This document shows positions 5,915 through 38,600 of a DNA stretch of 64,000 bases, piece by piece; position 1 is the first letter of the stretch, and every line of letters begins with the position of its first letter. The notes under the pieces are model-generated. The model searched no databases. It had not been told where the DNA came from and worked only from the letters and a program-made list of their open reading frames with translations. Position numbers and translations under genes: made by a program. The DNA comes from Aurantiochytrium sp. KH105 (lineage: Eukaryota > Sar > Bigyra > Thraustochytrida > Thraustochytriidae), in NCBI GenBank assembly GCA_003116975.1, contig BGKB01000046.1, positions 248,001 to 312,000 on the forward strand, in the 5' to 3' direction.

Positions 5915-8602
5915 CTACGCTGCAGATGTCCGAATGACGGCTCGCGTCTCCACCCCTTGGGTCTCGGCTTCGCGGGAGCCGAGGTCGTCCTGAACACCCG
6001 CCGTGCCCCAGACCGCCGAGGATAACGCCGCCGAAGAGGTGCGGACGAGACAGCGCAGCTCGCAGGATAGAGGAACCCCGGTCCCGTCGTCGGCGACGAA
6101 AGCTTCGCATTCGACCGCGGCGCTGGATTCCATCACGCTCGCCGCGGAACCTGGCCACGAGACCGAAACGTCGGCGCAGCAGCCGCTTTCGCCAGAGTTC
6201 TGCGCGATATCGGCCAGCGCCACGCTCAGCACGGCCTCAGAGGCCGACCACTCGCACCTTTGCGCGCCGGCGCTCGCACTCGAGACCTGAACGGTATCGG
6301 ATTCGGTGCCCGAAAGTAGGTCGCCCAAAGGCACCTTAATCAGAACGTCCTCGTATCGTGAGACGCTGCTGGCACCGCCGCCGCCACTGCCGACGCCGCC
6401 GCCACTGCCGGCCCCAATGGCGCGGGCCGAAGTAGCATTATTGAGGCAAACGCGGACAAGTCCTTTTGTCGCCACCCAGGATGCTGTGGCGTACACGGGA
6501 ACGGATTCCGGGCTCCACGATGCGTCCATCCAGAAAAGGGCCACGTTGTGCTCCTCTTCCACGCCGTCGTTGGCGCCTGCAAAGCTACACTCGATCTCAA
6601 TACGTCCTCCTTCTTGCGCAATAACCGAAGCCTGCGCAGCGTCTGCGCGACAGTTGATTGCGTGCGCGCCTCCATGCACTTGCTGCAAAACGATCCGCCC
6701 CCCTGGAGTTCCTGAAGCATATACCTTGCCGCGAGCCATGCACTTGTTGACAACAAACTTTCTCCCAGGCTGCCACGTCCCGTCTGCGATGAGCTGCTCT
6801 CGAATATGGAGAGAACGGATTTCCGGGAAAGTTTCCGCCTCGATCGTCCCCGAAGGCGAGCTTGTAAAAGCCCAGTCATCCTCGATTCCTTGGTGAGTAG
6901 TTGCCTCAAATGCGTCATCTGCATTGTCCGCTGGTGCTTTTCCGTTGCTCTCCTCACCGTCACCACCGCTGCCGCCGAAGGGATCCCACGCAGGATTCGC
7001 CGAGGCAGCTTCTTGCGAACGCGACGCAATTTCAGGACTCGGCGAACTAAAAGGATCCCATGCTGCGGGCTTTCCGCCCGCATCGTCCTCCACTTCGAGC
7101 CGATTCGTTCCACTGGGCGCGCTAAACGGGTCAAATGCCGCTTGTGCGTTTTTCAAAGGAACATCTCCTTCAGATACCCCTTGTTCATCAAGCTGATGAT
7201 TCTCTTGCGCGCCAAATATTGTCTCTGACACCATTCCTTCCTGCACATCACCTTGTGACTGTTGTTGTTGCTGCTGCGTGGAGGAGACCATCTCATGGTT
7301 CATAGCAGTCTCATCTTCGAAAGCATCGACTGCAAAGGAGTCCCCAAACTCCTCCCATGCAGAAGCACGGAGATAGGCGGTAGCCTTTCGGTTTTGTCGC
7401 TGTGCCTTCTTATGACGTTCTCGCTGCGACTTTTTGCTTCCACCCGCACGAGTCTGCGTGCTTGCAAGCATCGTAGGAAAGCATGTCGCACTCGGTATGC
7501 TTGCGCGCTCTTCGAGATCGCGAAGCGCAACGACTTGTTTCTTTCGTGCCACAAAGTCGGCTTTCTGCGACATCCAAATTTGAAGTCTCGACGCCTCGTC
7601 CTTGTCTGGCCGGCTCAAGCGCGCCGGGTCTGCAACCCCTTGAGATCCGTGCGTGCGGTCAAGTGTTGCGCTTGACCTTGCGCCCGCAGCCTTGGCCGAT
7701 GTCGCTGCGATGGCTGCTCGAGCGGCTTGGGCCCCTCGAGCAGCGCTCATGCTGCTTGCCTTGCCAATACTCTTCGTGCTACCGCCACCACCAGAGTTCT
7801 CCGCCATCGGAGTTGCACTACTTCCATGAATGCCTAGGCCTGCCGAGGGCGTTGAAGCAATTGATTTCGCCTTGACAAGCTCCACGGCATCGCGTCGCGT
7901 ACACAAAATTCGTAAGAGTGCAATTACGACATCGCCAAAGTTCTTTTCCACCTTTTTAGAGCTCACTCGCTGGTCGCAAAGCGCGAGTAGATAGTCTATC
8001 GTTCGGCCAATTACAGCAGCCGTAGTCCAAATGTCCTCACCCGCGTAATTGCACGAGACGATCCATACACTCTGGCACTGCACAAAATGTATCCTGTACG
8101 CCCGCGCTACAATATAAGCACCCTATTGTGTGTAATGTAGCGAGTCAGTATGAAAGAGTGCGTATGATGTCGGAGCAGGCTTCACTTTCCACCTACCTCG
8201 GCCGGATCTCGCGGAGCACGTTTTCTCACGAAAGACTCGAATCCTCGAACCAGGTTCTCCGCCTTTTCGAGAGCAATCAAGCCTAAGATTGCGCACGAAT
8301 AAAACCACAACAGAATAAAACACGTCATGGCCATTCGTCAGTCTCTTTCTCTCTTTCTTCTTGGCTTTTCTGGTGTGTCGTGCGCGCTGCTTCGCTGCTT
8401 TCGTCGTGCATCTAATCTTTTCTCTTCTTGGTCTGCGTCGCAGTTGCTGATTCGCTTTCCTCATCGACTGGCCCCTCTGCTCGCATCAAGTGCGCAGAGA
8501 GGAGGATAATCGCGCCAGCGGTACCAGCCTCAACGTACCCGCGTGCTGTAGCACCAGCGAGCGCCCGCCCGCATCCACGAGCGCCACGAAGAGCGCGGGC
8601 AT
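5915..8602 (-). CDS. Longin + mu-homology adaptor-like protein with DPF motifs
   Basis: I assign three exons: 8602-8539, 8282-8197 and 8077-5915. The introns 8538-8283 (GTACGT...TTAG) and 8196-8078 (GTAGGT...GCAG) keep frame and give 770 residues. Residues 1 to about 120 read as the longin domain of adaptor medium chains: the hairpin ALFVALVDAGGRSLVLQH, the strand SVWIVS, then paired helices ending VEKNFGDVVIALLRIL, which matches the position of the FVIIYELLDE helix of AP mu chains. A long disordered linker follows with a basic, Gln-rich segment and three DPF motifs near residues 366, 391 and 415 (FDPF, WDPF, WDPF), the type that bind clathrin-adaptor ear domains. The last ~290 residues, from LHIREQLIADG, resemble a mu-homology domain but weakly. 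AP mu, delta-COP, TSET TCUP and muniscins are the relatives to compare; the long DPF linker fits the muniscin/TCUP side. Function in coated-vesicle formation is inferred. Confidence 0.72.
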
Positions 8603-8803: not shown

Positions 8804-9758
8804 ATGGCGCCGCACTGCTGCGCGGCCATGATTGGCCCCTCCGTCCTCGACTGCGACATGGTACGTTTGGTGGTGAGCACGGCGCAGCATCGGCGCAGGC
8901 AATTCGATTCGAGTTCGTGGTCGCCACAAGACCCGGCTTTGTCGAGGTGTCTAGCCTCTTCAAGAAGCGCGCATCTTGGGCGAGCAACGATAAGAGAGAG
9001 GAATAATAGGTCGGTGAACTGACACACGAAATTGCGTGCGCGCCGCGTTAAACTCGGCTCATTAATCATAGGCGAATCTCCAATCCGAGGTCGAACGCGT
9101 CCTCAAGGCAGGTGCCGACTACGTGCACCTGGATGTCATGGACGGACACTTTGTGCCGAACATCTCGTTTGGACCCTACGTGATTGAGTGCCTCCGTCGC
9201 CACGTTCCTGACATTCCTTTTGACTGCCACATGATGACGAGCGAGCCGGAGAACTGGGTCGCTGGTGTGGCCAAGGCCCAGGGCAGCAAGCCCGGTCTCC
9301 TCACGTACACCTTTCACCTCGAGACCACGGAGGAGCGCGGCAACACGCAGCAGGTGATTGATGACATCAAGTCTCATGGCATGCGGGTTGGTCTGGGCAT
9401 CAGCCCGGACACCCCGGTGGAGACTCTGCTCAAATATGGCGACCAGATTGACCTTGCGCTCATCATGACCGTGCACCCCGGTAAGGGGGGGCAGTCTTTC
9501 ATGGAGAACATGATGTCCAAGGTTCGCAAGGTCCGCGAGCTTTACCCGGAAATGGACATTGAGGTCGATGGCGGTGTCAAGCCCGCTACGATCGACGCCG
9601 CTGCGGAGGCTGGGGCCAACCTTATTGTCTCGGGCTCTGGCGTCTACAAGGCCAGCGATATGGCCGAGAGTATTTCTACGATGCGTCGCAGTGTCGAGAA
9701 GCTTGGCCAGGGCAAGGAGGACGGTGATCTCACCCCGATGCGCTCCGACAAGGACTAG
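8804..9758 (+). CDS. RPE: Ribulose-phosphate 3-epimerase
   Basis: Exons 8804-8860 and 9072-9758 are joined across a 211-bp GT-AG intron (gtacgt...atag), giving 247 residues. The enzyme interconverts ribulose 5-phosphate and xylulose 5-phosphate in the pentose phosphate pathway. The TIM-barrel signatures are all visible: PSVLDCDM across the junction, HLDVMDGHFVPNISFGP with the metal-binding His and Asp, FDCHMM, MTVHPGKGGQSF (phosphate loop, with Lys where Phe is usual), IEVDGGV with the catalytic Asp, and AGANLIVSGSGVY. Length and motif wording resemble the animal/cytosolic form, with a short charged C-terminal tail. A second in-frame ATG at 8828 sits just before the conserved core. No plastid or mitochondrial leader is evident. 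The gene is divergent from the adaptor-like gene. Confidence 0.95.
8861..9071 (+). other. Intron of the epimerase gene
   Basis: It begins GTACGT and ends ATAG. Splicing joins ...DCDM to ANLQSEVERVLKAGADYVH, which restores the conserved N-terminal strand of the barrel in frame. It is one of the clearest introns in the window. Confidence 0.93.
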
Positions 9759-11222: not shown

Positions 11223-12179
11223 TCAGCGAATGAGAGCCTCGCTCTCGCGCGAGCGCTTGCCGAGTTTGGGAAGAATGAAGAAGACGCTCGTTGTAGCCTT
11301 GTAATTCTCGTAATCAGGCTGTCCGCCCCATTTTTCGTCTGCTCGTTTCTCGAGAAGGGGCACGCCAGAGACAAAGTTGAGTAGGCAAAAGACAAAAATG
11401 GGAGACACCACGGCAGCCCACTGCATGCCTTCAAATGTTGAAGCGCAAAACAAGAACATGCCCGTCCACAACGTCCACTCACCAAAATAATTGGGGTGGC
11501 GCGAGTAGTACCAGAGTCCAGTCTCGATGAATTGGCCCTTGTTCTCAGGACGTTGACGCCACACCGTTTTCTGGTGGTCTGCGAGCGCTTCGATGCCCAT
11601 GCCAATCGCCCACACGGCAAGACCGACATAGTCAAGAGCCCCGAGTTTCGCGTCTTCAGTTGCTGCATTTGCAATGTAGACCGCGTACGCGGTGACGTAA
11701 ACCCAAAGGCCTTGCGTGTTCCAGACATTGAAAAAGTACAAAAAGTTGGGCTTGATCTTGTCGAAACGACCGTCCTTGCCGTCACGGAGGATGCGTCGAA
11801 AGAGAAAGCTACCGAGACGGACTGCCCAAATCGTGACCAAGACGCTCGCAAGCACTGACCTTAGTTTAACGCCTTCCGTACTCTTGAGACCGGCCGAAAA
11901 CGTGTACCATGTGCACGTCAGGTACGTGAGGCTACCTGTCAGGTCAAAGTAGCGCTCCGTCTGGAACACATAGGAGGGTACGAAGACGAGTGCATTAATT
12001 CCGAAGCTCAGAACCAGAGTTGTCTGCAAGATGCTCAACTGCGGCACGAACGGGTCTGCTCTGCCCTTGCCAAGAAAGGAGAGCCCGATGCCCACGCCCC
12101 ATACCGCAACGACCGCCACCACGCTCAAAACTTTGCGCAGAAGCGGCGATATAGCCTTGAGGCCGCTCTCCTCCGACAT
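11223..12179 (-). CDS. DUF1295 / steroid 5-alpha-reductase-like membrane protein
   Basis: A 318-residue multi-pass protein. I chose the ATG at 12179 (MSEESGLKAISPLL); the frame runs further upstream, but that part is Arg/Gln/Ala-rich noise. The DUF1295 family belongs to the steroid-reductase/ICMT-like membrane enzymes. Its hallmarks are present: YFDLTGSLTYL near residue 80, NFLYFFNVWNTQG, GIEALADHQKTVWR, and the C-terminal GLWYYSRHPNYFGEWTLW motif with His and Asn expected to face NADPH. The end LEKRADEKWGGQPDYENYK is also typical. Six or seven hydrophobic helices are visible. A reductase acting on a lipid or sterol-like substrate in the ER is likely, but the exact substrate is unknown for this family. 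Confidence 0.88.
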   Translation of the reverse strand: MSEESGLKAISPLLRKVLSVVAVVAVWGVGIGLSFLGKGRADPFVPQLSILQTTLVLSFGINALVFVPSYVFQTERYFDLTGSLTYLTCTWYTFSAGLKSTEGVKLRSVLASVLVTIWAVRLGSFLFRRILRDGKDGRFDKIKPNFLYFFNVWNTQGLWVYVTAYAVYIANAATEDAKLGALDYVGLAVWAIGMGIEALADHQKTVWRQRPENKGQFIETGLWYYSRHPNYFGEWTLWTGMFLFCASTFEGMQWAAVVSPIFVFCLLNFVSGVPLLEKRADEKWGGQPDYENYKATTSVFFILPKLGKRSRESEALIR

Positions 12180-12944
12180 GGCGTCCTTGCTTTCCTCGTT
12201 CGTTCGCGCGGGCGGGACCTCCCTTTCTCCCTCCCTGCTGTCCGCGACTCGAACAAGCACTGACGTGTGCGTGCCGTGCCTGCGAGCCTGGCCTGGCGAC
12301 GCGCGGCTGACGGGCTGCCTGGCTGCCTGGCTTGCTGCCTGGGCGTCGCTGATGCCGGTTTGCTCGCACGGGCCTTGCGGCAGGCCGGTCTCGTCCTCGC
12401 TGGCGCGGCTTGGGCCTTGCTTGGACTCCCATCGCTCAGCTATCAAGCATGCGGAGCCGGCGATAAAATTGACATCGCATGGGACTGGAGAATTGTTCAC
12501 TGTGAATGCGAGGGAAAACAAGGACACTGTGGCAGTGGTCAGTGTGGACAGCCACCTCGAAGACCCATCATCATCCAAGCTGCAGCTGGTGCCGGTGGCA
12601 CGGCACGCGAGCTAGGCATGATGCTTGGGGTTGATGAAGATCAGAGTTGTCTTTTTACATTGCACGATGCGCGAGGAAGCTAGCTAGATAGAGCACGGAG
12701 AGTATACGTCGAAGAGGAGAGCAGAATCGGGGAAGACGCACGGACGGGTACGTATGCAAAGGTGACAAGAATTGGAGCGAAACTGGCAGAAGAGCGCGCT
12801 CCAATTGTTCGAGAGGAGAAAACGTGCTTGCTTCAAACGATTATCGCGGTTCACTGTGGCTGCGTTTGCGGGAGGCGGGGCTCACGCTGTGTCTGCAATT
12901 TGGGCTCACTCTTTGCAAAATGCTTACTCTGGAGCTCAGATCGC
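12180..12944. other. Upstream region of the DUF1295 gene
   Basis: Includes a degenerate (GCCTGGCT)n-type tract near 12310-12345 and otherwise mixed-composition DNA up to the 3' end of the channel gene. No separate gene is supported. Confidence 0.5.
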
Positions 12945-15900
12945 TCACTGCGTTGTTTGCTTGTTGAGCGCGACGGCTTCAACGTCTTGAAGGTCACGCT
13001 CGAGCGAGATCGTCGTTCGTCGGTTCCTCCTGCGTCCCGATGAGGATGGAGAGCAAGGAAAGGGATCGCCAGCAGCGCGGGCGCGAAGTTTGCGCGTTAT
13101 ACGACGAACACGAGAGGTGGCAATGTCACGCAGCCGCGCGTAAATGTCAGGAAAGTCCTTGAGAGATGTGAGCAGAGCTTCCCGGTCCAGCATGTAGAGA
13201 ATCGACACGGCGATGGCTTTGGCTGAAGCTGTTCTCCGTACGGGTAAAATGAGCGCAACCTCGCCAAAAAAGGATCCCGAAGAAATACTTGCGAGAGCAA
13301 TCGTCTTGGGAGCGAGCCAGGCTTCCTCCTCCATCATCGAGGTTGCAGACGACGAAGTTCGCGAAGACGCCTTGTCCCGCTTGGACTTGCCCGGATGCTC
13401 GCGGGCTTGCTGCATTTCTTGCTGCTGCACTAGAGACGGCAGCTCGTCTGACGGTGATTTCTGATACTCCTCGACATAGATGAGTATTTTCCCAGAGGAG
13501 ATGAAGAACATTGAGTCGCCCACCGACCCTTCTTCAAGAATGACATCGTCCTGAAAGGCCACCATTGGCGTGAGAGATGTTGCAAGCGAAGAGATGAAAC
13601 CGTTTCCTGTGCACTCTCGGAAAAAGGGGACCTTGAGAAAGAGTTCGCGGGAAGTAAAGAACATGATGTCGCGACGCAAAGACGGGCTGAGGTCCTTCAT
13701 GATGGCCTCTTCATTGAAGATCTTGCCCTCAGAGTATCTGAGCGAGAAGTAGTCCCGCACGCGGTCTCGGAGGTGCGGAGGCAGCCGCTTGCTGCGCATA
13801 TATTCATTGAGCTGCTGCGTCTTTTCCTGGTACAGACGCGAAGCCATGTTCATGCTAAAGATGATGGAGCTAATGTTGGAAATCATGATGGCATAGAACA
13901 CAGAACCAAGGTACATGCTGCTAAGCGTGATCCACATTTCGATCTTGCACCACGAGTCCGTGAGGTCGAGACAGCCCAGATTTGTAATGGGTGGTGTCTC
14001 GAAGCCAATACCAATCATTTGCGCCAGAGCCTTGAAGAACGACCACGAATATTGAGTACTTTCGGACATGGTGTCCAGCTCGGCAGCGACGACCCAACTT
14101 GAAGCAGGAAAATCCATGAGTCTGCACATCATGAACTGGAGACAGCCAATCCAATGCGCCAGAACCAGCAAGAGCACGCCTAGTTTCAGCATTCGTATCG
14201 TACTGTCGTGGATGCGAATCTTGAGTCGGTCTTCGATGAAACGATGCCAGTGCGCAAAGAACTTTGCTGCGCGGCCCATGCGCAGCAAGCGAAAAAGTTT
14301 GGTCATGCGTACAAGGCGAATGAGCTTGAGTCCTTTGGTCGATCGCGTCAGCCCATCGTCCTCCACGTCACCAAAGGCGTCGAGGACGAGGTCGATTGGC
14401 ACGGACGAAACCAAGTCTGGCATAAACCACGACAAAAGGTAGTGTCGAACAATGTCTCGATGTTCGAGATGCGTGACGCCGTCTATATCGACGTAGCCAG
14501 TGAAGAAATTTTTGGCAATATCGAGGCAAAAGAAAATGTCCACGGTAAGATTGAATCCCGACACGGCATCGTTAAAGTTCTCGAACGCCAATGATAAAGG
14601 AAGCGTCACGAGCGTGATGACCAGGACTGCAGAGATGACCAGGTCCCAGCCCACATGAAAGGTGCTAAAGGGATGCACAATCCAACGACTCGGCTCTTCC
14701 CAGTCTTCGAAATCGGAAGAAGTAAGACCTGGCGCAGAGTTGGCATGCGTCGCACTTCGAATGCTCTTGGCGATATCGCCAAGGTTAAACTTGGTCACGT
14801 CAAAAATTGTGCCCACAGAGACGCCACCTTGCTGCGATTCGGTACCCATATCGAGCGAATGTACAATGGAGTGATACCAATCGGCCAACTCTTTGAAAGA
14901 GACGTATCCGTCACCATTGTTGTCAATGGCTTCAAAGAACTTGGTAATATCCTCCACTGCGATTGTGGAGTCGAGCTCAACTTCAAGGTAGTTGACAAGC
15001 TCGTCGGGCGTCACTGTGCCGTCTCCGTCGGCATCGTATCGGCGGAAAGACTCCCATAAGTCCGGGTACAGCTTGCGCAGTTCGAGTTCTGACAGCGAAT
15101 CTGCAGATGCTCGTTTCTCAATGGCGTCATTCGAACCAAGACTGCCCGAGCTCTTCTGACCAACAACACCTGCTTCCTCCTCCTCTTTGGCTGTTGCCTC
15201 ATTGTCTGTACCATCGCATTTGGCGAGGTGGCGTTGCGAAGAAAACTTCTTCGCGGCGTTGAGTTCCTGAATGTTATCGAGCGCGGAACCATACTTGCGG
15301 AAAGAGGATGTCATCGACATGTTCAAAGGCGTGACGGACCCTCTGCGCATCTTGGACCCGAGCCCAGAGAAAAAGTTCCCCACGTTTGCGGCCCGTGCTC
15401 GAAGAGTGCTCGGCGAAGGAATGCTGGTCGACCCAAACATGGTCTGTCTTGTGGGCTGCATTTGCGGCTGCGCGCTTGCCTTTGATGCCACAGCGCTTGC
15501 AGCGTCGCGCACCTTTGCATGCAGACTCTGTTCGGACGTGCGTCTGAATCTATCTCTCGTTTCATAGCTCACGCTTTGACGCGATTGAAAGTCTGAAATT
15601 TCTTTGATAAGGCCACTCGTTTCCGTACCCGGGCTCATGGGCGAGATTGAACCAGGATTCGCGCGACTTGGACTCGACGCTAGCGTGTCGCGACCTCCTT
15701 GCGCTGTATTCAGAGAACCTAGAGAGGCGCGAAGCGATGCAGGTGGCGCGGCGGAGAGTGCTCGTACGAGTTCTTCGACCACCCTCTGGGTGGAAGACTC
15801 GTCAAGCGTGACATGCCTTACATTTGACGACGGTGTGTCTTGAGGAGAAGCGCTACTCTGTGGAAATGACGATGAAGCTTCATTCACGTAAGCAGCTTCC

Positions 15901-16397
15901 GTCTCTCCGAGCTGCCCTGCAGTCGTATGATCAACGTAAGCAGCCTCCGTGCCTTTGGGCAGCTCTGGAGCTGCATGGTCAAGATACAGTCCCGATTGCG
16001 TTGTTGGCGATGAAACGTACGCACTGCCTGCACTTGAAGACCAGGGCGCAGCCTCGTCCCCCGACGCAGCTGCAAGCGGGCTTGGCTGCACAGGTGGTAG
16101 CCTTCGAAGACGTTTGTTTGTTGGACTCTGTCGTTTATGGCGTCTGGACCCGTCTCGAGCATGACGAGCTTGGCCCGTTCCTTGAGCAATTGTGGCGGCA
16201 GCAGCTGCTGCTGCCGCTGATGGAGAATATGAATAATCTCCCTCGAGACTTTGGCCTGCATAAGTCCAGGAATTCCGCCCTGCGATCTGTTCGAGGTGTT
16301 GAAAGTCCTGGTAATACTGCTGATGATGATCGCCATGTGTTACATTCTCTGAGGTTTTTTGAGTGTGTTTCACGTTGTCATCTTTGCCGCCAGGCAT
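12945..16397 (-). CDS. EF-hand, voltage-sensing, cyclic-nucleotide-binding ion channel
   Basis: A single 1150-residue frame starting at an ATG. The first ~450 residues are disordered (Ser/Ala/Gln-rich with a poly-Ala run). Two EF-hands follow near residues 455-505 (DADGDGTVTPDE and DNNGDGYVSFKE), both with intact calcium ligands. The channel core occupies about 570-850: an S1 helix, S4 with spaced charges (KLIRLVRMTKLFRLLRMG near 690), and S5-pore-S6. The C-linker begins LPPHLRDRVRDYFSLRYSEG, and the cNMP domain lies at about 950-1075 with GSFFGEVALILPVRRTASA, whose Glu and Arg contact the nucleotide in known members. The pore reads IGIGFETPP where potassium channels have GYG or GFG. The EAG/HCN/CNG superfamily is certain; ion selectivity is not. 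Direct calcium control through the EF-hands is inferred. Confidence 0.93.
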   Translation of the reverse strand: MPGGKDDNVKHTQKTSENVTHGDHHQQYYQDFQHLEQIAGRNSWTYAGQSLEGDYSYSPSAAAAAAAATIAQGTGQARHARDGSRRHKRQSPTNKRLRRLPPVQPSPLAAASGDEAAPWSSSAGSAYVSSPTTQSGLYLDHAAPELPKGTEAAYVDHTTAGQLGETEAAYVNEASSSFPQSSASPQDTPSSNVRHVTLDESSTQRVVEELVRALSAAPPASLRASLGSLNTAQGGRDTLASSPSRANPGSISPMSPGTETSGLIKEISDFQSRQSVSYETRDRFRRTSEQSLHAKVRDAASAVASKASAQPQMQPTRQTMFGSTSIPSPSTLRARAANVGNFFSGLGSKMRRGSVTPLNMSMTSSFRKYGSALDNIQELNAAKKFSSQRHLAKCDGTDNEATAKEEEEAGVVGQKSSGSLGSNDAIEKRASADSLSELELRKLYPDLWESFRRYDADGDGTVTPDELVNYLEVELDSTIAVEDITKFFEAIDNNGDGYVSFKELADWYHSIVHSLDMGTESQQGGVSVGTIFDVTKFNLGDIAKSIRSATHANSAPGLTSSDFEDWEEPSRWIVHPFSTFHVGWDLVISAVLVITLVTLPLSLAFENFNDAVSGFNLTVDIFFCLDIAKNFFTGYVDIDGVTHLEHRDIVRHYLLSWFMPDLVSSVPIDLVLDAFGDVEDDGLTRSTKGLKLIRLVRMTKLFRLLRMGRAAKFFAHWHRFIEDRLKIRIHDSTIRMLKLGVLLLVLAHWIGCLQFMMCRLMDFPASSWVVAAELDTMSESTQYSWSFFKALAQMIGIGFETPPITNLGCLDLTDSWCKIEMWITLSSMYLGSVFYAIMISNISSIIFSMNMASRLYQEKTQQLNEYMRSKRLPPHLRDRVRDYFSLRYSEGKIFNEEAIMKDLSPSLRRDIMFFTSRELFLKVPFFRECTGNGFISSLATSLTPMVAFQDDVILEEGSVGDSMFFISSGKILIYVEEYQKSPSDELPSLVQQQEMQQAREHPGKSKRDKASSRTSSSATSMMEEEAWLAPKTIALASISSGSFFGEVALILPVRRTASAKAIAVSILYMLDREALLTSLKDFPDIYARLRDIATSRVRRITRKLRARAAGDPFPCSPSSSGRRRNRRTTISLERDLQDVEAVALNKQTTQ

Positions 16398-18205: not shown

Positions 18206-19723
18206 ATGCCGCAGTCGATGGTGAACATGGACACCATCCTGGGCATGGGCGTGGGGGCCGCGACGGTATGGTTTCTGTGGAACAAGCTCGACGACTGGAT
18301 GTCGGGCGACGAAAAACTCCCGGCTGTGCGCGACGACCGCAAATTCTCGCCCGACAGTCTCGAAATGTACAATGGCAAAGAGGGACGCCTCTGCTTCGTG
18401 GCTCTGCAGGATGGCACCGTCTTTGACGTGAGCGAGAGCAAGGAGGCTCTGGCGCAGTTCGGCGGCCGCCAGCTCACGGAAAAGGAGGAGCGCGACGTTG
18501 GCGCAGACAAGGTCCGGCGCAGCGGTCGCAAGGTTGGTTCCCTCGTGCTGCCGCGCAACTTTACCAAGGAAGAGCTCGCGCAGTTCAACGGCAAGAATGG
18601 CCGCCCCGTGTACATTGCGGCCAAGGGCGTGATCTACGATGTCGACCCGGAGTTCTACGGCGAGGGCGGACCGTACGAGATGATGGCAGGTAAGGACGCC
18701 TCGCGTGCGCTCGCGCTGGTCTCGCTGGACCCCGCCGATGTGGAGAACACCAGCCTTGAAGGCCTCACCTGGATGGATCTCAACACGCTCGACGAGTGGA
18801 TCGCCAAGTTCGAGATGAAGTACACGCGTGTGGGCTACCTTATTGACGAAAAGACGGGAAAGGCCCCTGCCGCTCCCGTCCCGCCAGCTCCGAGTTTTCT
18901 CACCAAGGAGCGTCAGCAAATTGAGCTCGCGGAGAAGATCGTTCTCTCCCATGACTCCTTTATCTTGCGTCTGCGACTTCCCGAGGAGAACATGATTCTT
19001 GGTCTCCCCGTCGGCAAGCACATCAAGTTTTGGTGCCCGAACCCGAAGCCCGTGAAGGACGGCGAATGGAATGGCCAGCCTGACGCTGAAAGCGGAAAGA
19101 AGGAGATTGAGCGCAAGTACACGCCGAGTTCCTCCAACGATGATGTCGGCTTCGTCGAGGTTGTCATCAAGGCGTACAAGGGCGGCCATGAGCGATTTCC
19201 TGATGGCGGCAAAATGTCGCAGTATCTGGACTCGCTCGCGGTCGGCGACAAGCTTGACGTCGCAGGCCCATTCGGTCGAATCGAGTATTTGGGCAAGGGC
19301 AAGCTCAAGGTCGGCAAGAAGGAAAAGCAGGTGAAAATGATTGGTATGATGGCTGGAGGCACGGGCATCACACCCATGCTTCAGATCATTCAGGCCATTC
19401 TCAAGGATCCGGAAGATGAAACCAAGCTGTCGCTGATTTTTGGTAACCAGACCGAGGAGGATATTCTCGTGCGCGATTTGCTCGAGGCCGAGGCCAAGCG
19501 CCACCCGGAGCGCTTCCGCCTTTGGTACACGCTGGACCGCCCGCCTGCAGAATGGGATTACTCGACTGGCTTTATTGACGAAAAGATGATCAAGCGCCAC
19601 ATGCCACCACCCAGCGATGATTCCGTCATTCTCATGTGCGGCCCGCCGCCAATGATCAAGTTTGCTTGCAAGCAGAATCTCGAAAAGCTCGGTTACGCCA
19701 AGGACGCACAGATTGAGTTTTAA
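18206..19723 (+). CDS. Membrane-anchored MAPR (PGRMC-like)-cytochrome b5 reductase fusion
   Basis: 505 residues starting at ATG 18206. Residues 7-26 form one N-terminal membrane anchor. A degenerate MAPR/cytochrome b5-like segment at about 45-80 (KFSPDSLEMYNGKEG...VFDVS) precedes a full MAPR domain at about 118-212: FTKEELAQFNGKNGRPVYIA, YGEGGPYEMMAGKDASRALA with the heme-ligand tyrosine region, and KYTRVGYL. Residues 235-505 are a complete NADH-cytochrome b5 reductase: RKYTPSS near 303 (FAD), FPDGGKMSQYL, MMAGGTGITPMLQ near 381-393 (NADH), and CGPPPM near 478. In animals PGRMC1 and CYB5R are separate proteins that work together; here they form one chain. A role in ER electron supply to lipid desaturation or P450 chemistry is likely but inferred. 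A polyadenylation signal follows closely. Confidence 0.95.
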   Translation: MPQSMVNMDTILGMGVGAATVWFLWNKLDDWMSGDEKLPAVRDDRKFSPDSLEMYNGKEGRLCFVALQDGTVFDVSESKEALAQFGGRQLTEKEERDVGADKVRRSGRKVGSLVLPRNFTKEELAQFNGKNGRPVYIAAKGVIYDVDPEFYGEGGPYEMMAGKDASRALALVSLDPADVENTSLEGLTWMDLNTLDEWIAKFEMKYTRVGYLIDEKTGKAPAAPVPPAPSFLTKERQQIELAEKIVLSHDSFILRLRLPEENMILGLPVGKHIKFWCPNPKPVKDGEWNGQPDAESGKKEIERKYTPSSSNDDVGFVEVVIKAYKGGHERFPDGGKMSQYLDSLAVGDKLDVAGPFGRIEYLGKGKLKVGKKEKQVKMIGMMAGGTGITPMLQIIQAILKDPEDETKLSLIFGNQTEEDILVRDLLEAEAKRHPERFRLWYTLDRPPAEWDYSTGFIDEKMIKRHMPPPSDDSVILMCGPPPMIKFACKQNLEKLGYAKDAQIEF

Positions 19724-20089: not shown

Positions 20090-22051
20090 TCATAAAGGTG
20101 CAAGAGCTGCTGTGTCTCTTTCATCGTGGTCGTCATCGTCATTGTCACTCCCGTACTCGCGCGGGACGCTTGAAGATACTTGCGGAAGCTGAAGAGAGCG
20201 GTACTCCATGCGCGCAGCCCGGCGACGACTTCGCGCAAGGAAGTAGCATGCGCATAGCGCAAAAACAGCGCTCATGACCAGACCTGCAGCAACACTTTGG
20301 AAAAACGAATTGCTCGTTGTGTCTGAGTCCATCGTGGGAGGAGGCAGTACCTCTGTTGCCCCGGATTCGACAGCGCAAGCCGGATGTGAGCGAGCAAAGC
20401 GCTGCCCAAATGCATTCGGTCCCGTAAGCGAGTCAAGTGCGATTGTGTCTGTCGCTGCACTGGCTAGACGGGCCAAATCAGCATCGTCCACGCTGACTTT
20501 GTACAAGACACAATCTCGACCGTCGAGAATGCCAAGTGTCAGGGTTGCAAAGGTGCCTTCCAGAGCCTGGCGCTCGATTGGAAAATGTACGGGAGCGTTG
20601 TGAAATTTTGCAGGGATCGGCAAGAGCTGCGTGAAGCGCGTTGTCGTAGTTTGTGCGGGATGATCGGGGCGCAGAAAGACTTGCACGGGACCCCAAGAGT
20701 TCCACAGACCACCGTTCTCCACAACGGCGGTAATATCGAGAGCACCCTGCTCGTTATTGGTCACTTGCACGCGCTGCAAGCGCAGGTAACTACCGGCAGC
20801 GAGCACGGCTTGCAGCACCATGTCAATGTTTGCCTGCGCGAGGGCGTCGACGGTGTCAGCGTCGGGCCAGAATCCGTCTCGGCCAGGTTTGGCATCAACC
20901 CATGCGTCACCTGGACCGACTTCTGGAGACATGGCGTAAATCCCATGGGCGTCAAACATCCAGTCGGCAGCATCACCGTCAACAGCATAGCCGACTGCCT
21001 TAAAGGAGTGTGCGGTATGAAAGTGGTTCTGCCCGGCAAAATCGCGCCCAAGGCGCAGATAAAACTCAGATTCTTCGTTCGACATGCCTTTGCTTTTGCA
21101 CGACCAAGGCAAGAGAAGGAATTTACCGAACGAGTGGAGATTGAGCGCGGTGGTGAAATTGGAGCGTTCGACAAGATCACGAATGGCTTGGGACTCGGGT
21201 TCGGAAAACGGAACTGGGCCTTGATAATCTTCATCACAGGGATTGAGGCTTGCGCCGCGTCGTATGGGGTCGTCCTTGTCGTCCTCAAAAAAGCATGTGG
21301 CGTAGTTCCGGTTCAGGTCGACTCCAAGTTTCCCCAAGCTGCAATATTTGGGGCTCGGGGGCGGCGCGCGATTTTTTCGTTGCATCGCATGCCGGATGGC
21401 TCCGGGATAAGCGGCCAGCTGCTCTTCGTTGTAGACATAACCATCGGGATTCACGACAGGGATAATCCACATGCGTCTTGAACGCAAGATGTAGTATGCC
21501 CAGGCGTCTTTGTAATCTTCTTGATCTTTGTTGGTGTCGTTGTCGTCTGTGTTGAAATCGTCGTCTACAACAGAGAAGATGGTCTCGAGCGTTTTCACGA
21601 GCGCCATCATGGAAACGCACTCGCGAGAATGGTGCATGGCGTTGAGCAGGGCTTCTGGGACGCGTGTGTCTTGAGCGCCAGCTTGGCATTGTCCGACGCA
21701 GAGAGCAGAAATCGGCCTGCCCTCCACAGACTTGCCGATCTCCTCTCGCGTGACCCATTGAGGAAACTCTCTTGCGAGTTGATTAATATACGCCTCGCTG
21801 GCTTCCCACGTGAGGCAACCTCGAAGCGTGGCGACTGGAGAGCGGCCTCGTTGTGTCGGGCTCTGGGTCGGTCTTCTTGAAGGCGCAACAATCTCGTTGA
21901 CGGTGGGGTTTTCTGACCGTGGCTGCGTCTGCGCGGCGGTCACCGACAGTGGCTCTGTACTGGCGCGTCGCAAGTGGGCACTCGCACCTGCGCGCGCCAG
22001 GCACACACTGTGCGCCAGAATGGCGAGCGCCACGAGAGCCTTGGCTCGCAT
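20090..22051 (-). CDS. Membrane-anchored M14 zinc carboxypeptidase
   Basis: 653 residues from the ATG at 22051. An upstream in-frame start would add 18 residues, but this one places a signal peptide (MRAKALVALAILAHSVCLARA) at the N-terminus. The peptidase domain covers roughly residues 80-420. The zinc ligands are in HHSRECVSM (His and Glu) and in LNLHSFGKFLLLPW (His); LGVDLNRNY and NPDGYVYNEE are the substrate-binding signatures; MSPEVGPGDAW carries the expected catalytic Glu. A beta-rich domain follows, then a membrane helix (AAGLVMSAVFALCACYFLA) about 60 residues from the end and a basic-then-acidic cytoplasmic tail. The arrangement resembles type-I anchored metallocarboxypeptidases (CPD/CPM-like), which trim C-terminal residues from secreted or surface proteins. 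Substrate preference cannot be read from the sequence. Confidence 0.93.
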   Translation of the reverse strand: MRAKALVALAILAHSVCLARAGASAHLRRASTEPLSVTAAQTQPRSENPTVNEIVAPSRRPTQSPTQRGRSPVATLRGCLTWEASEAYINQLAREFPQWVTREEIGKSVEGRPISALCVGQCQAGAQDTRVPEALLNAMHHSRECVSMMALVKTLETIFSVVDDDFNTDDNDTNKDQEDYKDAWAYYILRSRRMWIIPVVNPDGYVYNEEQLAAYPGAIRHAMQRKNRAPPPSPKYCSLGKLGVDLNRNYATCFFEDDKDDPIRRGASLNPCDEDYQGPVPFSEPESQAIRDLVERSNFTTALNLHSFGKFLLLPWSCKSKGMSNEESEFYLRLGRDFAGQNHFHTAHSFKAVGYAVDGDAADWMFDAHGIYAMSPEVGPGDAWVDAKPGRDGFWPDADTVDALAQANIDMVLQAVLAAGSYLRLQRVQVTNNEQGALDITAVVENGGLWNSWGPVQVFLRPDHPAQTTTTRFTQLLPIPAKFHNAPVHFPIERQALEGTFATLTLGILDGRDCVLYKVSVDDADLARLASAATDTIALDSLTGPNAFGQRFARSHPACAVESGATEVLPPPTMDSDTTSNSFFQSVAAGLVMSAVFALCACYFLARSRRRAARMEYRSLQLPQVSSSVPREYGSDNDDDDHDERDTAALAPL

Positions 22052-23295
22052 GGGCTCAGTCTTTGCAAGCCTTTCTCCCTTGCTCTTTCCACAGAAATCT
22101 TTCATTTCATGGAAATCGTTTGGCGGTGTGGGACCGACCTATCGTCTTCAAGAGCAGCGGCATCAGCACCTTCACCAAAAGCGACCTAACATCTATATCG
22201 ATCCCCGCGAGCCCAGATCGCGCCTTCACGACCAAGCCCGGCCCGAACGCGCGAAGTGACGGCCTCCCTTGGCATAGGATCAAGACCTACTTTGTGCGGC
22301 AAGCTTGCGTGGGCAGGGACAGGATTTTGCGGACTTTGTGCAATCGCTGTCTCAAGAGGCGACGGGCTCGTACCGCAGCATAGCCGCAGCCGTCATAAAG
22401 TTCATGGGCAACCTCGTTTTGTGCACGTCCGACTGATGCAGTTTGGCAGTGATAAATCTCTTTTTATCCTTGGCAAAACCATCAAAACGATGACCAGAAA
22501 GAAAGCCATCAGAAGAAAGTTCAAAACAAAGTAATTTTGCGTTCTTGACATGATCTAATCTGGGCAACTAGGTCTTGTCCACATTATGATTTTGTGACCT
22601 CCGAGATACGCTTACAGCTCGCTAATCCAAAATACTTGGGCCTTGCGGGAACTGGACGTCAGTTGACAAAAATCACTGCGACAAAGTGGGATAGTCGCGG
22701 GACGTGAAGTACGATAAGCCCGGGGAAGAAGTCAACACGCGCATACAGCACACAGAAAGTGCTTTCAGGGATATAAAATAATCAAATTCGTTGGAACGTC
22801 GTCCCAAATTGGGAATTTTACTGCCGTTCTGATTTTTAAACTTCAGGCACGCAAGTTTAATGTTCGCTTTTGAATTTCTTGCGCACTTTCAAATACCCAC
22901 ATACGTTTGCTTTTCGATACTCTCCCGAAACTAAAAAAAGAGCCCTCTCTGGTTTTGTGTTATGTGATAAATATCTGCTTGAGCTGCTGCTCCGTTGCTT
23001 CCAGTACTTACGGTGTGTTCTGAGATTGTGACGAATCGAGAGCCTGAAGTGCGGCTAGCCTTGCAGCACCGTTCAACTGTATGTTCTATGTAACTCGATT
23101 TTGCATCCGATATCTGCCCACGATGCATCTGATCGTAGCAAAGTTCGGCAAGACACCGCGTGAAGTGTCAGTGAGGACCGGTGGACTCACTCTGTCCTGA
23201 TCAGTATTCTTTGGCCTGTTGGAGTCCGCGAGCGCCTCAGAGCAAGCTGGTTGCCGAATTCGGACAGCTAGATCCATAAACTTTAACAGGCACTT
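22052..23295. other. AT-richer intergenic region
   Basis: 1.2 kb upstream of the carboxypeptidase gene. From about 22430 the DNA is clearly lower in GC than the surrounding genes. Only short frames occur, and I see no repeat or RNA gene. Confidence 0.5.
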
Positions 23296-24389: not shown

Positions 24390-25964
24390 TTAGCCAGGGC
24401 TGTAAAAGGGCCGGGGTGTGGGTTCTGGCGTGGCTTCTTCGTCATCGGACACGGTAGGCGGCGTGAATCCCCAAGTAGAATCGTCTTCGACCGGGGTCGG
24501 TGCTGGGGTCGGTGACGAGGTCGTCGGCGTTGTGCCTCCCCAGCCAAATGGTCTTTGAACGGGCGCATTTGTCGGGATCGACGTGGGTGCCATCGTAGGT
24601 CGCGCCGTAGGGAAACTTGTTGGGAAAGATGTCGGTGAGGCCGTAGGTGTGCTCGTGGGCGATGTTGTCGGGGAAGCAGTGGGCCATTCCGTGGGCTTGG
24701 GCGTGGGAAAGGCTGTCGGGAACTCGGTGGGAAATGGCGTCGGCGAAATTGTTGGTTTGGGCGTGGGGAATGCAGTCGGAAAGGCCGTCGGAAAAGCTGT
24801 GGGCGACTCCGTCGGCTTCACCGTCGGAAAAGCTGTTGGGAAACTTGTCGGAAAAGATGTAGGAGATTCCGTGGGTTTTGCTGTCGGGAATGCCGTGGGC
24901 CATTCTGTAGGGCTTTTTGTAGGGAATACCGTGGGGAAATCGGTCGGGAAAGCCGTGGGGAAAGCCGTCGGAAACGAGGTGGGCGACTCCGTGGGCTTGC
25001 TCGTAGGAAAGGCCGTGGGAAAGGCAGTAGGAAATGACGTGGGCGACTCTGTGGGCTTGCTCGTGGGAAAGGCTGTAGGAAAGGATGTAGGGGAACTGGT
25101 GGGCTTGCTTGTGGGAAATGCCGTAGGCCACTCTGTGGGCTTGCTCGTGGGGAACAATGTCGGGAACGCTGTAGGAAAGGGCGTCGGAGAAGATGTAGGA
25201 AAGGTTGTTGGGGCTTCGCTTCTGCCTGCCGTCGGCGACGTGCCCCCCCACCCAAAGGGCTGAGGCGTAGGCTGCCTTGTCGGAGAGAGTGTTGGAGATG
25301 TTGTCGGGCGAATTTCATCCGAAACGGGCGCGGGCGTGGGTGACCAGCTCTCGACCCAGACGGTGGGCTGTGACGTGGGCGCGGTGGTTCGTTCGGCTGT
25401 GGCAGTGGGTGTCTCGGCGACGGTAGGGTACGGGGTCTCGGGCGAGGCCGTGGGCGCGCTGGAGCTATCCTCCTCTTGGCAGTCAGCAGTGACCGTGCAG
25501 GCGCTCGCGGTACTGTACGAGCAGCCGGTGTAAAGGGCGCAAACGTCTTCGGAGAGAACATCGACGTTGCAGCCTCCAATAGGGATGTCGTAGCATTTGC
25601 ATGCCTCGGAGGCGGCGCAGCTCGAAGCGTCATCGTCCCACTCGCAGCCGTTAGCGGCAATGCAGTCGCTCTCGGCGGAAAAGTCCGAGCATGAGGTCGA
25701 GCTGCCAAAGTCGCAGCTTTCTGGTCTATCGGAGACTGTGCCGATTTCAATGCCGTCGGTGTCGGCCGCGACGAGAGCGCCGCTATCGTTACTACTAACG
25801 CTGGTCCCCCCCGTGGAGACGCTGACGGCGACTGCGACTACCACTGCAACACCGACGAGCGCCACGCCTGCTTTGATGGCGCGCCTCGCATTGTCGGAGA
25901 GATCGTACCACCACGACCTGGACTCATCCATGCGGTCGCGGATGGCGAGCATGCCCTCGGACAT
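24390..25964 (-). CDS. Cys-rich type II membrane protein with long Pro-Thr stalk (paralogue A)
   Basis: 524 residues from ATG 25964. A short cytoplasmic tail (MSEGMLAIRDRMDESRSWW) is followed by one membrane helix (about 31-50, AGVALVGVAVVVAVAVSVS), so the rest lies outside the cell or in the lumen. Residues about 84-163 hold two tandem six-cysteine modules with spacing C-x7-C-x8-C-x5-C-x8-C-x5-C, including NGCEWDDDASSC and YTGCSYSTASAC. From about residue 175 to 490 the chain is a Pro-Thr stalk built of units such as FPTSKPTESPTSFPTAFP, probably O-glycosylated and extended. FGWGGT(S/T)PT occurs at both ends of the stalk. The architecture suggests a cell-surface or wall protein. It is a clear relative of the protein at 33698-34486, which shares the IGTV segment, both Cys modules and a PT stalk. 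Confidence 0.8.
   Translation of the reverse strand: MSEGMLAIRDRMDESRSWWYDLSDNARRAIKAGVALVGVAVVVAVAVSVSTGGTSVSSNDSGALVAADTDGIEIGTVSDRPESCDFGSSTSCSDFSAESDCIAANGCEWDDDASSCAASEACKCYDIPIGGCNVDVLSEDVCALYTGCSYSTASACTVTADCQEEDSSSAPTASPETPYPTVAETPTATAERTTAPTSQPTVWVESWSPTPAPVSDEIRPTTSPTLSPTRQPTPQPFGWGGTSPTAGRSEAPTTFPTSSPTPFPTAFPTLFPTSKPTEWPTAFPTSKPTSSPTSFPTAFPTSKPTESPTSFPTAFPTAFPTSKPTESPTSFPTAFPTAFPTDFPTVFPTKSPTEWPTAFPTAKPTESPTSFPTSFPTAFPTVKPTESPTAFPTAFPTAFPTPKPTISPTPFPTEFPTAFPTPKPTEWPTASPTTSPTSTPTASPTSFPTSFPTARPTMAPTSIPTNAPVQRPFGWGGTTPTTSSPTPAPTPVEDDSTWGFTPPTVSDDEEATPEPTPRPFYSPG
24560..25260 (-). repeat. Coding minisatellite of the PT stalk
   Basis: Degenerate tandem units of about 12 and 60 bp encode (F/S/K/A)-x-PT blocks. 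The near-identical larger units in the 24.75-25.15 kb part suggest recent expansion by slippage or unequal exchange. The complementary strand is accidentally open through the array as a G-x-x-V-G repeat. Confidence 0.8.
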
Positions 25965-35680: not shown

Positions 35681-38600
35681 ATGGGTCTCTTAGGGACGCT
35701 GGTGGGTGGTACACGCAAGGCTAGCTCAAGTGATGCAGACACGCCCGGTTCGTCTTCAGATTCACCATCACTTACCACTTCCGAGACAACTTCGAGCAAT
35801 AAAACTTCTCGCCCTCGTGTGCTGAGCGCATTTGGAAAGAGAAGTGAGGAAACAAGCCTCTCGGTTGACACAACAGATGCTTCGACAGAAGAGGAATCAA
35901 AAGCTGGCTCGCCGCGCTTTGCACCGCGTCTGCCAACCTTTTTGAAATCAGGACTCCAAGCTGTTGCTGCTGGAATTTCGCAAAAGTCGTCGAGCGGCGC
36001 CAAACGAGATGCTCGCCCACGTGCAGCGACGGCAACGGCGTCAGACCTCGAGTCTTCCTCTTCGAGTCCATTGGCATCGCGGCCAATGTCCGCGAGCGTG
36101 GGCGGGGCCGTATCGAGCGAGCAAGCTCATCTAAAGGCGGTCGAGCCCCTGGCTTCAGGGGCGACGGCCTCTTCCCCATCAACCCCCGGCCGGCTGTTTG
36201 GAGCAGCGGAATTTGAAGGCGATGGAAAGGTTGAAGGCACGGAGGAATCGAACGTCAAGCGTCCTCCAGAACAATTAAAGGGAGATGTATCGCCACAGTC
36301 CGCAAAGGGACGGCACGGAAGCTTCTTCTTCGCCACAGGCGGCAAATGGAGTCCGCCAGCGAGCCCAACTGGGGACCGAAAACGAGGATCGAACTTGGGT
36401 GTTCTTTCGAGTCTTGACCTCGACTTGCATCGCAAGCCACGAAACTCGAGCGGCTTGAAAGAAACTGTGCTGGAGCGCTTTGAGCACGCCGAGGAGCTTC
36501 GCAAGCACCGTAACACCAAGTTGTGGTGCTATTGGGGCATGTCCAAAGAGCACAAGGAGCTCGAGTTCATTCGTAACTGGAAAACTCGGCTCGTCGCGCG
36601 GTCCGGGGCGCTCAAGCAAACATGTCGGCACGGATCGCTCGACAGCGCGGAGCGGCGTAGCACCTGGCTGTCAATGGCAGACGTCAATGTAGTGAGCAAG
36701 ACGTTCAAGAACACGGTCACGACATATGATATCGTCTTCCGCGAAAAGGTTGCCTCTTGCCCAGGATGCAAAGAGCTGCACATGGACCATTTGCACAATT
36801 TCGGGGCTCGATTTCTTCGCAACGGAGGATCGTTGTGGTCCGAAAACCTCTTTGAAAAGCACTTGCTCGCGCCAGAAGGCATCAAGTGCGCCAAGCGACT
36901 AATGCTGGTTCTTCACGCAAAGTGGGCCATTGACTACTGTCCGCAAATTCCAGACATGGTGTGCATCTGCCTCTTGTACCTTACCGAGCAAGAAGCCTTT
37001 GCCGTCATTGACGGCATTCTCGCCCGATCGCGGGCCTCGAAGCGCTGGTCGAGTGACACAGAAGGCGTTTTGGTGATTCCCGTCGGCAAGGCGGATGCCC
37101 TCGTCTTTGTGCGCACTTTTGTCAGTCTGTTCAAGGAGCGACTTCCGGCACTTTACCGGAACCTCCTCGATCTCGGTCGAGACGCAGACGAGTTGGACCA
37201 AGTGGTCCTCAATTGGTTTGAGCGTTTCTTTGTTGGCACGTTTCCCGTGCGGTACGTGGTACGTATCTTTGACTGCTACATGGTGGAAGGGCCCAAGGTA
37301 CTCTACCGTGTTGCCTTAACGCTGCTGAAGAACGCTCGTTCGCAGCTGCTGGTGGAGTGTGCGAAGCGAAAGCGAGGCGAGGTGGCTCTCTCGGAAATCA
37401 TCGAGAGCGTGCTTCGCTCGCTGGGTGTGGCCCCTGACCATCACAATCACCATTCGCGATCCGCGCACACGATCGAAAAGCAAGGATCGCGGTCGCCATC
37501 GTATCGCCTGCTCGACTTTTCTTCGACAACGGAGGGCGGTCCTCTTGCAACAAATTCACGAGGCTCGCGAGCCTCGCGAATGTCGAATCTTTCCAAAGAA
37601 TCCTGGGCACCGCCATCGTCGGAGGCTTCGACATCTTCCCTTGGCAAGCTGCACGATCTCTTTTCGAGTCAGAGCATGGTCGACGCTTTCATTGAGGATG
37701 ATGAAAAGGCTTCAGGCGGTGAAGAGAACGACGACGCTGGCTCGGCGTCGAGCTCGGATTCCTCGTTGGACGGTATTGTCGTCAAGAATGAGGCCGCAAT
37801 TGAGGCCGAAAGCCCCGTGGAAACTGGAAGTGCAAAAAGCACAGAGGATCGTCTTCTCGACGTTGTTCGATCAACGAGCCTCAGTGCACATGTTACGCGG
37901 CAGGATTTCGACGATGATGACGACTTGGACCGCGAGGAAGGCCTTTTGTCGCCGCGGTCTCGCCAATCACCGGGCTCGCCTCGCTCGACGAGCAGCAGAT
38001 TTCTGCGTTCGAGGCCGGGATCCAAAAGCGGGCCACGAGGAATTCTACTTGCAGCACAGTCGGAGCGGTTCAATGACGTCTTCGGCGTTGACGCCGACGG
38101 CGAGGTGCTTGATGACCCGGGATCGCCCATGTCCCCTCGATTTCTAAAGTCTGTGCAGCTAGAACCCATGTCCATGATTGAGGGTGCCTCTACGGCCGAG
38201 TACAACATTGCCGCGAACAATTTGACTTTGCGCGCGCGACGGCACTCTGCTCCACGTGGTGTCATCCCATTTGGGCTCGACGCGCAGGCTCCTCCAGAGA
38301 ATCAAGTGATTGTGGTGGAGAAAAAGTACGGCTCGAAGACATTTTACAGCGAGAGCAGTCTGTACAAGTCGGATTCTGTGGCGGGCGCTGCACTGATGGA
38401 GCGTATGATTGGCGCGGATGTTGCCAACACGCGGCTGCTGCACGCGCCGCAGCAAGACAGCTTCGAATTTAAAGTGTTCCTCTCGGGCTGCTTTTCGTGG
38501 CGGAGCATCAAGCGCAAGTCTCTGGCCAAGTACGACGAGACGAGCCGTCGCGTTGTGCAGGCAGACCCTTTTGCGCGCATTTCGGATCCTGTTCCCACAT

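Follow-up and report, generated by a model that had tools for sequence, protein, structure and literature searches.

The gene on the minus strand between the ATG at 8602 and the stop at 5915 raises the question of which adaptor medium chain, if any, it encodes. The window is the whole 64,000-nucleotide stretch of Aurantiochytrium sp. KH105 DNA that was analysed (C46:248001-312000); its GC content averages about 0.58, and it belongs to a searched genome of 76.0 Mb in 367 contigs. Medium chains consist of a longin and a mu-homology domain, and in TSET this subunit is TCUP (PMC4031984). We give roughly even chances that the gene encodes a divergent TCUP (called TML in plants), the medium-chain subunit of the endocytic TSET/TPLATE coat. 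A longin domain, a long linker, and a possible muniscin-like end make up the TCUP/TML layout.

The gene is transcribed divergently from a ribulose-phosphate 3-epimerase gene (9123-9758, plus strand, Pfam 3e-53). The window also contains an ORF of 1379 aa with RabGAP-TBC and TLDc domains (35681-39820, plus strand), another gene of membrane-traffic type, and one of 1150 aa in which a cyclic-nucleotide-binding domain comes after EF-hands (12945-16397, minus strand). The remaining genes noted encode a DUF1295/steroid-reductase-like protein (11223-12578, minus strand), a protein with cytochrome b5 and FAD/NAD reductase domains (18206-19723, plus strand), an M14 zinc carboxypeptidase (20090-22105, minus strand), and a PT-repeat protein (24390-25964, minus strand). 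Elsewhere in the genome, PUFA-synthase-like pieces are located in separate ORFs on contigs C72, C155, C290, and C61; the best scores 930 bits, below the model cut-off of 1010, and the model also matches 11 of 14 control genomes, none above the cut-off. On C72, a 2081-aa ketosynthase-bearing ORF adjoins the PfaA-like piece in the opposite orientation, an arrangement typical of thraustochytrids.

Judged from its sequence, the gene is real, and two introns join a longin-coding 5' end to a large exon in a continuously open frame. Its parts are as follows:

8539..8602, minus strand, exon 1: start ATG and longin strands 1 and 2 (MPALFVALVDAGGRSLVLQHAG); identical in the second genomic copy and collinear with the delta-COP longin domain from the first residue

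8283..8538, minus strand, intron 1: 256 nt, GTACGT...TTAG; gapped in the alignment with the second copy, at 92.4% identity

8197..8282, minus strand, exon 2: region of the first longin helix; 97.7% identical to the second copy, gap-free

8123..8196, minus strand, intron 2: 74 nt, GTAGGT...ATAG, with the donor at 8196 and the preferred acceptor at 8123

8078..8122, minus strand: 45 nt placed in intron 2 by the earlier note, exonic in the preferred model, where they encode GAYIVARAYRIHFVQ, longin strand 3

5915..8122, minus strand, exon 3: remainder of the longin domain, linker, C-terminal region, and stop; open frame, with 93% identity to the second copy across 735 aa

Two acceptors of intron 2 are in frame. 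The one at 8123 leaves an intron of 74 nt and a protein of 785 aa, and the one at 8078 an intron of 119 nt and a protein of 770 aa. The acceptor at 8123 is the more likely, because the additional 45 nt supply longin strand 3 and raise the longin scores, because all three differences from the second copy within them are silent and in third positions, and because the alignment to the delta-COP longin domain is collinear. The Smith-Waterman score against the longin domain of the genome's own delta-COP is 58 with the 45 nt (0 of 1000 shuffles as high) and 35 without them (67 of 1000). Random inserts of 15 residues lift this score equally in 59 of 1000 cases, so part of the gain is due to spacing and not to sequence. 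Counting against 8123, the 45-nt segment is identical between the copies at 42 of 45 positions, no higher than intron 2 with 69 of 74. The acceptor at 8078 is disfavoured, as it costs the protein a longin strand and lowers the longin scores; yet this version still scores 20.9 in HHalign against a profile of eight mu and sigma/zeta longin domains from the same genome, which none of 100 shuffles reach. The proposal in the earlier note that two upstream exons join in phase therefore holds for exons 1 and 2, intron 1, the GTAGGT donor, and the open frame, and its second acceptor is moved from 8078 to 8123.

Most of the examined genes are present as close pairs on different contigs, and beta-COP was seen once. 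The partner of the focal gene is located on contig C86 (L010), in flanking DNA that is 94-96% identical. Such pairs, including the focal one, are as would be expected of the two haplotypes of a haplotype-resolved diploid or of a hybrid. The joined exons of both copies align over 2358 nt with zero indels. Gaps occur in intron 1 and in the upstream and downstream flanks, with none in intron 2, and a 16-nt gap upstream of the ATG breaks the frame in the second copy. The same residue is encoded by 734 of the 786 codons of the joined coding sequence, stop included. The pN/pS ratio between the copies is 0.36 overall, 0.14 for residues 1-128, 0.28 for residues 129-470, and 0.60 for residues 471-785, the C-terminal region thus being under the weakest purifying selection within the protein. 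It is highly improbable that the gene model is wrong, with 5' exons that belong to nothing or an artificial join. The pyrimidine content of the acceptors, 0.48 to 0.62 over the last 21 bases, is moderate, which would suit such an error. In contrast, the longin domain of the spliced frame outscores all shuffles and all panel pieces (described below), whereas the unspliced frame runs into stops; the exons are free of the indels found in the flanks and intron 1; and the GTACGT donor is also present, as read by eye, in both copies of the genome's own sigma2-like gene.

The N-terminus is statistically confirmed as a longin domain of the medium-chain type, in agreement with the earlier note, its scores lying above all shuffles in both HHalign and Smith-Waterman comparisons. 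Against the profile of eight longin domains it scores 25.9 in HHalign (shuffles: mean 11.5, sd 2.45, 0 of 100 as high). Ten single references were compared by Smith-Waterman alignment, with a panel of 420 pieces of 145 residues serving as the background; the pieces were taken from stop-to-stop stretches of at least 300 residues in all six reading frames of the window and of the loci other than L001-L032, and include non-gene frames. Three references, the genome's own delta-COP (58), TRAPPC1 (47), and Arabidopsis TML (45), the latter two being approximate sequences, exceed 420 of 420 panel pieces, the best of which scores 44. The others are at or below that value: mu4 40, sigma4 38, mu1 37, sigma3 30, mu2 27, mu3 26, and zeta 23. 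The score of 45 against the approximate TML longin domain is reached by 3 of 500 shuffles, and longer pieces match more weakly (38 of 1000 shuffles as high). Compared with four chains of this genome, the approximate TML longin domain itself scores best against delta-COP, at a level that none of 1000 shuffles reach; the approximate TML sequence carries Pfam muHD at 2e-11 and so belongs at least to a muHD protein. A Pfam scan of the focal protein gave no longin family match, and the silence of Clat_adaptor_s carries little weight, because the genome search with that family also missed the longin domain of the genome's own mu2-like chain, which was read in the sequence.

The focal protein is distinct from the mu chains of AP-1 to AP-4 and from delta-COP of the same genome. 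Five other kinds of medium chain are encoded at 10 places and are read as mu1, mu2, mu3, mu4, and delta-COP, the last (L029) with a longin region that matches coatomer delta in the PDB at 9.6e-55. Of the 22 Clat_adaptor_s matches, 14 represent five kinds of small chain, read as sigma1-4 and zeta-COP, and the other 8 are the longin domains of four kinds of medium chain. Nine kinds of large chain account for 17 of the 38 Adaptin_N matches. Eight of them are named by their C-terminal families, and partly by us, as beta1/2, gamma-COP, gamma, beta3, beta4, beta-COP, alpha, and epsilon, and the ninth is read by elimination as AP-3 delta. Weak Adaptin_N matches were not counted as TPLATE or TSAUCER; seven of them were read by eye as armadillo/HEAT-type ORFs. 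Even with the focal gene left aside, AP-1 to AP-4 and COPI seem to have all their subunits, and since their medium chains are apparently encoded separately, the focal protein would be an extra medium chain.

We consider it unlikely that such an extra medium chain has another identity, either AP-5 mu or a copy of delta-COP or of an AP mu chain that was duplicated in this lineage and gained a long linker. The longin domain is closest to that of the genome's own delta-COP, no TSET partner was recovered in searches that were weak, and the AP-5 zeta family SPG48 gave two matches below its cut-off, the better of which has an E of 0.0025 and reaches 24 of the 25 bits required, all of which would fit such an identity. 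However, that match crosses three stops, the SPG48 model also matches E. coli below the cut-off, and the best genome match of Spatacsin_C has an E of 1.24, so that the two families searched yielded no convincing AP-5 partner. AP-5 mu is likewise a divergent medium chain, and hard to detect. Very weak spatacsin C-terminal matches are located about 30 kb from the focal copies, at C46:223231-223350 (E 3.7) and C86:64152-64268 (E 1.2), and are probably due to chance. Such an identity is further opposed by the C-terminus, which is without convincing likeness to the corresponding domains of the genome's own delta-COP or AP mu chains.

Returning to the putative TCUP, the linker and its motifs are arranged as follows:

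6863..7888, minus strand, linker, residues 129-470: low order-promoting fraction; boundaries set by us

7346..7357, minus strand, WEEF: WxxF-type motif

7124..7132, minus strand, DPF motif 1 (FDPFS): kept in the second copy

7049..7057, minus strand, DPF motif 2 (WDPFS): kept in the second copy

6977..6985, minus strand, DPF motif 3 (WDPFG): kept in the second copy

The fraction of order-promoting residues is 0.18 in the linker of about 340 residues, compared with 0.41 in the longin domain and 0.29 in the C-terminal region. The three DPF motifs described in the earlier note are present and exceed the 0.04 expected from composition-preserving shuffles (p 2e-4). WxxF also occurs three times, where 0.16 are expected (p 4e-4), and two of these motifs overlap with DPF motifs. 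The focal protein contains no NPF motif. DPF and WxxF motifs bind the ears of AP-2, and DPF motifs are typical of endocytic accessory proteins. The TML linker also holds a DPF.

The C-terminal region is as follows:

5918..6862, minus strand, residues 471-785: candidate mu-homology domain, interrupted by a Gly/Ser-rich insert; low-confidence, mostly beta prediction and a loose collinear alignment with a muniscin-type profile

The mu-homology domain that the earlier note had proposed here found no convincing match by Pfam, PDB, HHalign, Smith-Waterman, or hmmsearch. Pfam and PDB sequence searches with the region returned nothing. HHalign scores were equalled by 13 of 100 shuffles for a profile of the genome's own mu domains and by 12 of 100 for SGIP1 and FCHO1 together, and Smith-Waterman scores by 164 of 500 for SGIP1 and 116 of 500 for FCHO1. 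For the four profiles used in hmmsearch, 9, 23, 33, and 10 of 400 shuffles scored as high, the values of 9 and 10 being marginal, and the reversed C-terminus outscored the real one for two of the four. The best of the global pairwise comparisons with eight references was matched by 78 of 300 shuffles, and the comparison with the C-terminus of the approximate TML by 755 of 1000. Two AlphaFold models, computed without relatives, are beta-rich and of low confidence, and display no convincing mu-homology fold. At a low alignment cut-off in HHalign, the region is collinear with the full length of a muniscin-type profile (SGIP1, FCHO1, and the approximate TML) at a non-significant E of 0.37, pairing NVALFW with NVDMLK, DVLIKVPLG with NVQFLVPID, and WSASE...LADIAQ with WNAEQ...IPDISQ. 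This alignment is suggestive to the eye, and a mu-homology domain in this position is undemonstrated, though not excluded.

The alternative of a longin protein whose C-terminus is unrelated, evolves fast, and is either beta-rich or partly disordered, the protein serving as a lineage-specific endocytic accessory factor that binds AP-2 through its DPF motifs, would agree with a significant longin domain followed by a C-terminus that matches nothing and is the least constrained part of the protein, and with motifs common among accessory factors. We nevertheless regard it as rather unlikely, as the length, the position, and the order of longin domain, linker, and C-terminus fit a medium chain, and the alignment with the muniscin-type profile, non-significant as it is, is collinear.

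A TCUP is favoured by the longin match, the separate genes for the five other kinds of medium chain, the excess of DPF motifs, and the presence of genes for possible partners. These candidates are an Eps15-like protein (L070, G000:C191:101982-102266 and surroundings), which has two EH domains, a coiled coil, and, as read, a DPF near its end; an alpha-like adaptin; and a beta adaptin whose appendage is of the beta2 type (3.9e-23). The ear of the alpha-like adaptin belongs to Alpha_adaptinC2 (1.6e-9), and its platform is matched weakly by the alpha model (E 0.052) and the gamma-COP model (E 0.04); a family-level genome search for the alpha platform found none. A TCUP is disfavoured by the lack of a convincing mu-homology signal, by the highest pN/pS of the protein being that of its C-terminus, and by the TSET partners, none of which were found. 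TSPOON, TPLATE, and muHD (Pfam PF10291) did not turn up in genome searches that were weak, and for muHD and TPLATE the blanks are not proof of absence. An approximate TPLATE query had no genome match, and the Coatamer_beta_C profile detected only beta-COP.

The absence of a mu-homology domain alone would not exclude a TCUP, because the TCUP of Dictyostelium lost its own, according to the account cited (PMC4031984), and matches neither the narrow muHD nor the broad muniscin-like profile in the relevant passage of a 2025 survey (PMC12167817). In the same passages, TSET is distributed across stramenopiles, with TPLATE and TSPOON in all stramenopile groups, whereas TCUP is sporadic and suspected to be under-detected through divergence (PMC12167817). 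Fewer than a quarter of the stramenopile TCUPs listed there match the narrow muHD profile, but nearly all of them have a match to the broader muniscin-like MHD superfamily (PMC12167817); one would therefore expect a typical TCUP to be easier to recognise than the focal protein, which speaks against this identity. Labyrinthulomycetes were sampled, and the passage on the nine stramenopile groups with five to six of the six subunits omits them (PMC12167817). Among the matches listed by a full-text literature search, none dealt with TSET in thraustochytrids, save this survey through its sampling of Labyrinthulomycetes.

The focal protein resembles TCUP/TML in its longin N-terminus, its long linker, and its apparent separateness from the AP and COPI medium chains. 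It differs in that its mu-homology domain is undemonstrated, that weak searches found no partner, and that its sequence is far from that of the approximate Arabidopsis TML. With the muniscins (FCHo1/2, SGIP1, Syp1) it shares a possible muniscin-like C-terminus and a linker that could bind AP-2, whereas its N-terminus is a longin domain and the Pfam scan of the whole protein found no F-BAR family. The mu chains of AP-1 to AP-4 have the same medium-chain layout; their four mu-like kinds are encoded separately, and the focal linker is about 340 residues long. Delta-COP has the closest longin domain in the genome, but it has its own gene and a C-terminus that does not match. The earlier note saw in the protein an intermediate between TCUP and muniscins that kept its longin domain. 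TCUP is retained as our best guess, and the intermediate is not, since muniscins originated from the C-terminal half of TCUP, the only part they kept, through its union with an F-BAR domain, as the cited text describes (PMC4031984). The supposed intermediate is a known kind, because medium chains of the TCUP class already combine a longin and a mu-homology domain. The focal gene is probably an ordinary, though hard-to-recognise, member, since the same layout has already been described in plants and other protists; it stands out by the extent of its divergence, not by its layout.

If the protein is a TCUP, its longin domain would seat it in the core of the coat. The C-terminal region may be a strongly drifted muniscin-type mu-homology domain that contacts the membrane, cargo, or the Eps15-like EH protein; in plant TML, the mu-homology domain connects EH proteins with the complex and is reported to bind membranes (PMC11361644). 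The DPF and WxxF motifs of the linker may dock onto the appendages of AP-2, and would thus bring AP-2 and clathrin to endocytic sites. We think it quite improbable that the protein is instead a longin medium chain that works without a TSET tetramer and pairs directly with the Eps15-like EH protein and, through DPF and WxxF, with AP-2. Such a TSET-free medium chain, if true, would be a living version of the exit of animal and fungal muniscins from TSET, made independently in stramenopiles. If the focal gene encodes a TCUP, as we prefer, Pfam muHD and Clat_adaptor_s miss it, and splicing together with comparison to the longin domain of the organism's own delta-COP can recover it.
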